From: Branchiostoma floridae
Taxonomy: Eukaryota > Chordata > Leptocardii > Amphioxiformes > Branchiostomatidae
Assembly (NCBI RefSeq): GCF_000003815.2
Contig: NC_049984.1
Span: 10,314,324 to 10,378,323 of the forward strand
Direction: 5' to 3'
Length of the DNA stretch: 64,000 bases
Both the position numbers and the translations under genes were made by a program. Below, in pieces: positions 6,188 to 9,300 of the stretch (position 1 is the first letter of the stretch; the number at the start of each line of letters is the position of its first letter). The notes below the pieces were generated by a model, which ran no database searches, was not told the DNA's origin, and saw only the letters and a program-made list of their open reading frames with translations.

Positions 6188-6327
6188 TCAGTTCATGTAC
6201 TTTAGCTGATACCTGCTGAGGAGCTGGGGCAGGCTGGAAATGATGGGCCCGTAGCCAGGTGCATTGTCGTACAGCTCAAACAGGGGGGCAGCCACCAGCT
6301 TGTAGTTCCTGGGCACTGCGAACAGGG
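6188..6327 (-). CDS. NUDT21: NUDT21 coding exon 6 (terminal, complete copy)
   Basis: 140 nt from acceptor CCTCCAG at 6328 to the stop codon at 6188-6190. It encodes [20 protein letters not shown] followed by [20 protein letters not shown] and QLKYMN. The phase-1 G from exon 5 completes the first Ala codon. This is the only copy in the array that continues into GYGPIISS and a proper stop, so it must be the functional last exon. Confidence 0.93.
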
Positions 6328-9300
6328 CTGGAGGCAAAAAACACAAGAGGAACACACTGTCATCATAGAGTCATCTACAGGTGCATTGTCGTACAGCTCA
6401 AACAGGGGGGCAGCCAACAGCTTGTAGTTCCTGGGCACTGCGAACAGGGCTGGAGGGACAAAACACAAGAGGAACACACTGTTAACATAGAACCATCTAC
6501 AGGTGCATTGTCATACAGCTCAAACAGGGGGGCAGCCAACAGCTTGTAGTTCCTGGGCACTGCGAACAGGGCTGTAGGAACATAACACAAGAGGAACACA
6601 CTGTTAACATAGAACCATCTACAGGTGCATTGTCATACAGCTCAAACAGGGGGGCAGCCACCAGCTTGTAGTTCCTGGGCACTGCGAACAGGGCTGTAGG
6701 AACATAACACAAGAGGAACACACTGTTAACAACAAAGAATCATCTACAGGTGCATTGTCGTACAGCTCAAACAGGGAGGCAGCCAACAGCTTATAGTTCC
6801 TGGGCACTGCAAACAGGGCTGTATGAACAAAACAGAAAAAAGCACACTGTTAAGATACTGTTAAGCACACTGTTAAGAGAATCATCTACAGGTGCATTGT
6901 CATACAGCTTAAACAGGGGGGCAGCCACCAGCTTGTAGTTCCTGGGCACTGCAAACAGGACCGTAGGGACAAAACACAAGAGAAACACACTGTTAACATA
7001 GAATCACCTACTGAAAGTATGGCTTTACGCCTTACAGTCTTGAGAACTTTCATTGTATGTATGGCAACAGGACATACAAACCAGCTCATCTGTCTTCCTG
7101 CTACCTACCCCCATATCAAAAAGTGAGTTGGCAGCTACATGTCTACTTAAGTGCACGTAAGGTTAAATGACTGGGGTGAAAGGGCTACTGGATGTTTTAA
7201 AGACGTTATAACATTACTAAAATATTCTATGTGGAAGACTTAGCTGCCATAACTGCAGCAAAATTGAGACTAATAAAATAAGAAGGAAATGCACAGAAAA
7301 CATACACAGTATGTTATTTACAGAGTGTGTAATTGTAATGAAGATCGGTGTAGGTATTGCAAAAAAATGCCTTGTTTAGACGAAAGATCTTGATATCCCA
7401 CCAGCTTACAGCTAAATATACTCCGATGGTAATGGAGATAGGACCAAAGTATTATTCAGAATAAAAGCAGTGAAACCTGCACTTGATTCTGGTATGCTTT
7501 TGCTCAATTCTCCACAGGGGCAAGGTGGATCCTTAAATAAGCTCATTGCTCTCCACTAACAGGGGTCCAATATGTCCCCTCCAAAAGACTGCATGCTGGC
7601 CATCATCCATTCTTTATGGCACAGCCATTATGATTGGCAGAACCTCTGATTAGCACAAATTTCCCTCCCAACCTTCATGGCCAACAGGGGAGGTCAGATT
7701 GCCACCACTCATCAACAGGACCCAATCAAACTTGTATAACCTCCTCCTGCATTGATTGACCACTGGCTGTCTCTGGACATCAGACACAAGCCTTGGTAAT
7801 GAACCCGGGGCCATAAAAGTGACAATTTGCCACTTGCCATTATTTGTTACAATATTGGTGCGTGGTCCGGCCTGATGAGCTGATTACTGCGCCACTGTTG
7901 ATTGCGTACGGACAATCGGATGATTGAGACTGAACAATCTGTATTGTCATGTCCGCGGATGAGAATACAATGTGTGGAAATGAGGACTGATCCCTCGATA
8001 CATCAAACTTGTTATAACCGCTCCTATCGGCCCAAACCAGTCGATAACCCTTGTCTATATCCATGATATGAAATTTAATTCTAATATCACAAAGCAGCAG
8101 TGAGCCCACGATCTATTGACACAATATGCAATCCAGATTCGAGAGAAAGATACAGCCCCCTTGACCTATCTCATTTGGTTACTTTGTATCTTTGGCAGAG
8201 GGTGCTACCTACACAAATCAAACTATGTTCTAACTTCAAAATCCTCTGTATCCAATTATTTCCTCATTCAAAACATTGTATTTCATGTTATAGACAATAG
8301 AGTCTCTTGACAGAGTTTAAGTTTAGACACTGGCTGAAGTTAACATTGCTCCCTGGAAGTAATGTACACAGGACTGATAAAAGCAATGCTATCCCCAAAA
8401 ACTCACATTTGACAGGCAAGAGACTCTTCATTAGCTTTCTGTCTCAATGAAAACTTGACCATATTGAGGATCTGAAATATTGTTTGAAATTTGATAACAC
8501 TAATTTACAATGGATAAAGCCTAGGAATAGAATTTTGTGTCTCCTGTTTAAGTCCTGAAAGAATTAGGGTTAGTAGGTAGGATCGTCTTTTTTTTGTTAA
8601 TTCTTTTCAGACTGTGGCCCAAACCCAAGGGATACAATAAAGTTTAACAAGTAAAACCCAAATGTATGGGGAAACTTATATTTCCAATGTCAAAATTTTG
8701 TGCATAATGGTTGCAAATCTGTGGATACATTTATCCTTCATTCGGACACAATGAGCATGTTTTTTTTATTTGAATAGGAAACACACTGTGGCTCCACTGC
8801 CCACCCTAAAGAAGGCTGGGGCTGGCAGGCTTTTCTAGAGTAGGTCAGGAAATGCATAATTTTTCCCTTAGGCCTAAAGTACTGAAAGGGTAGCTCTTTT
8901 TTGTTGTTCTGCTTTTTGATTTTCATCAAATTTGTTATATAGCAGCTTTAAACAACCACCTGCATTTCATCTGCATACACATCTTTGGGTGCAATAACTC
9001 TTTCAGCACCAAGGCCAGTACCTGCTGTATCAAGTGGTGCTTTCTCAAGCTTCAAAACAAGTTACAGTCTTAATCACTGTTTTCACTTTAAACAATCCTG
9101 ATTACACTGCAGGAAAGGCACATGAATTACTGCTGGTAGCTGAAACCATGAAATTAAGTACTTCGTAAAGTTACACGCAGTAACAAATATCCAGTCCACA
9201 GATTATACCACTTGCTTACTTGGCAATAACTTGAATTGAAGCATTCACTCTCGTAATCCTGGAGAGAAAGTTATAATTTGTGGGCGTGCTTGTACCTCGT

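Follow-up and report, generated by a model that had tools for sequence, protein, structure and literature searches.

Partial copies of the terminal NUDT21 exon in a lancelet probably form a mirage minisatellite

The final intron of NUDT21, the gene for CFIm25, ends in Branchiostoma floridae in a tandem array that repeats the boundary between this intron and the last coding exon. We regard the array, with considerable confidence, as an intronic lancelet mirage minisatellite that is normally skipped in favor of the acceptor at position 6327. Mirages are minisatellite-like duplications of lancelet intron-exon boundaries, as described in the available portions of two papers (PMC3087553; PMC3902484). 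The NUDT21 array would be a further case of this already described repeat type and is most likely harmless intron sequence. Normal skipping of the copies is expected by analogy with the papers on other mirages. The two defining anatomical features of mirages are present at NUDT21: the repeat unit spans an intron-exon boundary, and the true exon and the 226-aa frame are intact beside the array. The probable mirage adjoins the terminal exon of a gene central to RNA processing and by itself shows no new mechanism.

NUDT21 is complete and found at a single locus

The window, a 64-kb stretch of DNA analyzed at its full length, contains the complete coding region of NUDT21 on the minus strand, with six exons and an intact frame of 226 aa plus a stop codon. 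The exons are 51-93% identical to human CFIm25 in tblastn. The human query matches PDB 3bap over its full length. Exon ends were set by similarity to human CFIm25 and by splice consensus, not by cDNA.

44725..44834, minus strand: NUDT21 exon 1, coding part, with start ATG at 44834-44832
43266..43466, minus strand: NUDT21 exon 2, from similarity to human CFIm25 and splice consensus
41344..41407, minus strand: NUDT21 exon 3, from similarity to human CFIm25 and splice consensus
25046..25135, minus strand: NUDT21 exon 4, from similarity to human CFIm25 and splice consensus
23848..23923, minus strand: NUDT21 exon 5, with donor AAG/GTAAGA
6188..6327, minus strand: NUDT21 exon 6, the true terminal coding exon, with acceptor CTCCAG/CCC and stop TGA at 6190-6188
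4498..4503, minus strand: possible poly(A) signal, the sole AATAAA/ATTAAA hexamer on the gene strand from the stop codon to about 4000

Exons 5 and 6 join in phase 1. The end of exon 5 at 23848, already placed there by the initial annotation, fits the intact six-exon frame. The last intron (23847 to 6328) has the tandem array at its end. Among the six exons, only the last has extra copies.

In the 513,431,437-base assembly, 11 of 11 matches to the NUDT21 protein fall in the window locus (12 candidates scored), and no second NUDT21 gene was found genome-wide among the best candidates scored. Since no second gene was found, efficient correct splicing of this one is to be expected. The array DNA likewise has one place in the genome, which rules out a dispersed repeat. 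With a one-place array at the sole NUDT21 locus found, the animal would presumably depend on correct products of this locus.

Other genes in the window were recognized by similarity.

50230-52002, minus strand: polynucleotide kinase 3'-phosphatase (PNK3P and AAA_33)
45943-48852, minus strand: receptor tyrosine kinase with Ig and EGF-like parts
54734-57537, plus strand: RPS19 exons

A second tandem array (40320-40969; period 266, 2.5 copies, 78% matches) lies in NUDT21 intron 3 and touches no NUDT21 exon. Imperfect palindromes at 31650-31888 (about 240 nt, 81% self-complementary) and 21399-21616 (218 nt, 73% self-complementary) are perhaps fold-back elements, and the segment 24692-24982 matches 31621-31315 in inverted orientation at 75%. 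The 64-kb window has no Rfam match at the gathering threshold, and a search with bacterial settings detected no tRNA genes in it.

The array consists of six units that span the boundary

Tandem Repeats Finder places the array at 6256-7011, with a period of 122, 6.0 copies and a score of 988. The six copies are spaced 122, 122, 122, 125 and 142 nt apart. Each unit combines the first 71 nt of exon 6 with 51, 54 or 71 nt of the intron end, and the 71-nt exon parts start at 6327 (the true exon), 6449, 6571, 6693, 6818 and 6960.

6257..6378, minus strand: unit C0, which contains the true exon start; 71 nt of exon at 6257-6327 and 51 nt of intron at 6328-6378
6379..6500, minus strand: unit C1; exon copy 6379-6449, AG acceptor, intron part 6450-6500
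6501..6622, minus strand: unit C2; exon copy 6501-6571, AG acceptor, intron part 6572-6622
6623..6747, minus strand: unit C3; exon copy 6623-6693, AG acceptor, 54-nt intron part 6694-6747
6748..6889, minus strand: unit C4; exon copy 6748-6818, AG acceptor, rearranged 71-nt intron part 6819-6889
6890..7011, minus strand: unit C5, the outermost; exon copy 6890-6960, acceptor CGG, intron part 6961-7011

The true unit continues into GGCTACGGG. All five extra copies instead end in GCACCT/GTAGATG, where GTAGATG opens the intron part of the following unit. The acceptors of C1-C4 retain CAG, while C5 reads CGG and has lost its AG. The initial annotation had put the last NUDT21 exon at the end of a tandem array, with five extra copies of the exon's first 71 nt and their intron acceptor, four of them keeping AG, and had called the unit a minisatellite; the six units at 6257-7011 and the period of 122 agree with this description throughout. 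It was also right about the location of the array, but the end lies at 7011, slightly beyond the proposed 6990.

Whole units are 82-98% alike. C1-C3 are closest to each other (94-98%), and relative to these C0 is 92-94%, C5 92-93% and C4 83-84% alike. The most diverged of the six units is C4, which adjoins the edge unit and is not the edge itself. The likeness of C1-C3 would fit a homogenized array center, whereas the position of C4 does not appear to fit a pattern of diverged edges.

The differences among units also bear on the question of an assembly or sequencing artefact, which we consider very improbable. Array numbers at lancelet PGBD5 do differ between two assembly versions (2 and 7, 3 and 6), according to the portion available of PMC3902484. 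At NUDT21, however, the units differ by substitutions and by 3- and 20-nt length differences in addition to their range of identity, and the array sits on a 28 Mb contig. Divergence of this extent makes a recent clonal stutter of the assembly unlikely. The exact unit number could be wrong or specific to one haplotype.

Four copies carry usable-looking acceptors, and all five have a weak donor-like edge

Splice sites were scored with an animal weight matrix. The true acceptor scores 10.5, and those of C1 to C5 score 10.4, 7.6, 7.6, 9.0 and -0.6. The acceptors of exons 2 to 5 score 6.0, 8.4, 8.9 and 9.0; C2-C4 fall within this span of 6.0-9.0, and C1 exceeds it. A yTnAy branch-point match is present at -31/-32 in all five extra copies (TTAAC at -32 in C1). 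The true acceptor has no such match between -60 and -14, and the corresponding place there reads ATGAC. Judged by acceptor scores and yTnAy matches, C1-C4 would be good decoys as acceptors, and the earlier claim of usable-looking acceptors in four extra copies is supported by their scores of 7.6-10.4. With a score equal to that of the true acceptor and a closer branch-point match, C1 raises the puzzle of how the spliceosome avoids it. Near-identical neighboring acceptors make the locus a convenient natural test of acceptor choice by the spliceosome.

The donor-like edge of the copies, CCT/GTAGAT, is without G at +5 and scores 0.4, whereas the five NUDT21 donors reach 4.7, 6.5, 6.2, 8.7 and 10.3. 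Among the 4097 GTs on the gene strand, 33% score at least as high as this edge. GTAGATG had been proposed as a possible donor; the edge does occur in five of five copies, but it is weak. The exon 1 donor (44716-44727) reads CCT/GTAGGT, which is nearly identical to the copies' edge, and scores 4.7, so a poor match on the exon side seems to be tolerated there.

Use of any copy would cost CFIm25 its native tail

Reading on from C1, C2, C3, C4 and C5 gives 82, 65, 65, 66 and 56 residues after ..LAEK, and translation loses the native tail in all five cases. The same loss occurs in 15 of 15 combinations in which copies among C1-C4 are placed as cassettes before the true exon (C5 was left out, its AG being gone). 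Three-cassette combinations amount to 213 nt, which is divisible by three, yet a stop intervenes. The initial annotation had stated that use of any upstream copy replaces the conserved tail, and this holds for read-through and cassettes alike. We reject the copies as tandem cassette exons: the weak donor (0.4) argues against internal exons, the C5 acceptor is lost, and none of the 15 combinations keeps the native tail.

The decoys could instead be leaky, so that in a measurable fraction of NUDT21 transcripts exon 5 would be spliced to one of C1-C4, with read-through from there. The result would be CFIm25 with a foreign, often Cys-rich tail, and working CFIm25 would be lowered or tuned. C1-C4 have usable-looking acceptors and branch-point matches, and their read-through extends 65-82 aa before a stop that would fall in the terminal exon, so that such RNAs might escape nonsense-mediated decay. 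On the other hand, mirages at Adh3, globin and troponin C are said to leave normal splicing undisturbed in the portions available of PMC3087553 and PMC3902484, C4 and C5 carry replacement changes, and C5 is without AG. We consider leaky use unlikely, if less so than an artefact.

Exchange with the true exon could explain the conserved exon part

The exon part of the units varies less than the intron part, which plain neutral intron sequence does not predict. Variable columns number 7 of 71 in the exon part versus 23 of 50 in the intron part across all units (p=1e-5), 5 of 71 versus 12 of 51 without C4 (p=0.015), and 2 of 71 versus 9 of 51 among C0-C3 (p=0.008). When the true unit is left out, the difference is not significant, either for C1-C3 (2 of 71 versus 5 of 51, p=0.13) or for C1-C3 with C5 (5 of 71 versus 8 of 51, p=0.15). 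Because the contrast shrinks without the true unit or without C4, most of it is due to these two units.

The copies could alternatively be under selection, either as regulated alternative last exons or as poison exons. The lower variability of the exon part is compatible with this, and the 24 residues encoded by C3 are identical to those of the true exon. Yet the seven variable exon sites comprise three synonymous and four replacement changes (P to S in C4, A to V and E to K in C5 among them), no combination restores the native tail, the donor is weak, and the contrast loses significance without the true unit and could stem from exchange with the true exon. We give selected exons very little credence. 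Exchange with the constrained true exon would be the simplest account of the contrast; selection on the copies is unneeded to explain it and is disfavored by the replacement changes in C4 and C5.

The mirage minisatellite is our preferred reading. A segment made of ~51 nt at the end of the final intron and the adjoining 71 nt of exon 6 would have undergone tandem duplication, and unequal exchange or slippage may have expanded it to six units. New units would arise upstream, within the intron, and leave the true exon whole. Exon 5 (23848) would then be joined to 6327, and the array would be removed with the intron. The copy number of the NUDT21 array likely varies, as judged from the globin gene BflGb6 with its 6 and 3 units.

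UGUA pairs may be present by chance

UGUA is the preferred site of CFIm25, and CFIm affects the splicing of MAT2A (PMC8139829, in the portion available). The gene strand has 11 TGTA motifs in 6257-7011: C0 has one, and C1 to C5 each have a pair spaced 16 nt apart. One TGTA of each pair is made by the duplication junction. The array might act as a copy-number-variable brake on CFIm25, with extra units competing for exon 5 and CFIm possibly binding the UGUA pairs of its own pre-mRNA and shifting the choice between true and decoy acceptors. We deem such feedback highly improbable. UGUA pairs 10-30 nt apart occur in 12% of 645 overlapping 122-nt segments of NUDT21, and at least two motifs occur in 27%. 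Since pairs are this common in the gene, those in the units may be due to chance.

Boundary arrays are absent from the sampled exons and clustered in Adh3

Adh3 is on the same contig as NUDT21, where a human ADH5 query matched two exons. Tandem arrays occur at four consecutive Adh3 splice sites (L012 8028-9377), which we placed by similarity and consensus; the published Adh3 sequences were not part of the comparison.

L012 8028-8275: 26-nt units at an acceptor, with about 6 nt of exon
L012 8371-8459: 29-nt units at a donor, from the exon's last base
L012 8464-8868: 59-nt units, 6.9 copies, at an acceptor, with some 26 nt of exon
L012 9054-9377: 33-nt units, 9.8 copies, at a donor, with about 20 nt of exon

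Only two Adh3 exons were found within 30 kb, and a single N stands directly behind the last array. Arrays at this gene fit a lancelet genome. A search for the GFP family, taken as a lancelet marker, gave no match, and its 14 controls gave no match either.

A survey of 60 exon loci revealed no array that crosses a match or lies within 30 nt of it. The sample comprised the best 30 of 60 PF00118 matches and the best 30 of 62 PF00443 matches (60 of 122); taking best-scoring matches favors long exons, several loci overlap within the same gene, and matches do not always end where exons do. Applied to the known arrays, a first, stricter criterion recovered the one at NUDT21 and two of four at Adh3; it was loosened afterwards, and the count was still 0 of 60. 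The four RPS19 matches near NUDT21 are single. At one surveyed locus, an array of a 67-nt unit (L020 2251-3186, 14 copies) lies at a distance of 565 nt from the matched chaperonin exon. Counted by exon, mirages seem to be uncommon, with clusters in some genes, for example Adh3.

Comparison with known mirages and a model of intron gain

Among the matches listed in the open literature, mirages were found described only in PMC3087553 and PMC3902484, no title listed with them named NUDT21, and no lancelet title appeared among the 10 of 24 listed on NUDT21 isoforms. The available portion of a paper on amphioxus huntingtin (PMC2206037) mentions tandem repeats in scaffolds and not mirages. The following statements on published cases refer to the available portions of the two mirage papers.

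PGBD5 has 60-bp and 108-bp repeats at splice sites (PMC3902484), and this paper also names Adh and troponin C as cases. Like the NUDT21 array, the PGBD5 repeats are in tandem and overlap splice sites, and the authors think that splicing is undisturbed. The repeat length is different, and the PGBD5 splice sites were set mainly by protein homology.

The name mirages was given to boundary-spanning tandem repeats reported from the Adh3 genes of B. floridae and B. lanceolatum; their units measure 10-72 bp (PMC3087553). These are minisatellites that span a boundary, as at NUDT21, but the units are shorter (26-59 nt in this genome) and both donors and acceptors are hit. Somatic instability is reported for Adh3 (Canestro 2002, cited in PMC3087553), whereas the NUDT21 array is known from one assembly.

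In the Rogers model, introns are gained through tandem duplication of a segment with AG/GT (described in PMC3087553). Each NUDT21 unit could in principle likewise serve as a 71-nt exon and a 51-nt intron. In contrast to the model, the donor is weak and no combination restores the native tail, and for these reasons we see no sign of a new intron formed at NUDT21. The array also offers a test of whether minisatellite turnover can seed new introns.

The closest twin is the mirage of the globin gene BflGb6, which comprises the 3' intron end and the 5' part of an exon in units of 150-160 bp that are 81-100% alike, with 6 and 3 units on two haplotypes (PMC3087553). The BflGb6 units are longer than the 122 nt at NUDT21, and they are documented by two haplotypes and RT-PCR as opposed to one assembly and DNA alone. 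Both arrays join the 3' end of an intron to the 5' part of the following exon, many of their units keep splice signals, and they are similar in unit number and in range of identity (81-100% and 82-98%).
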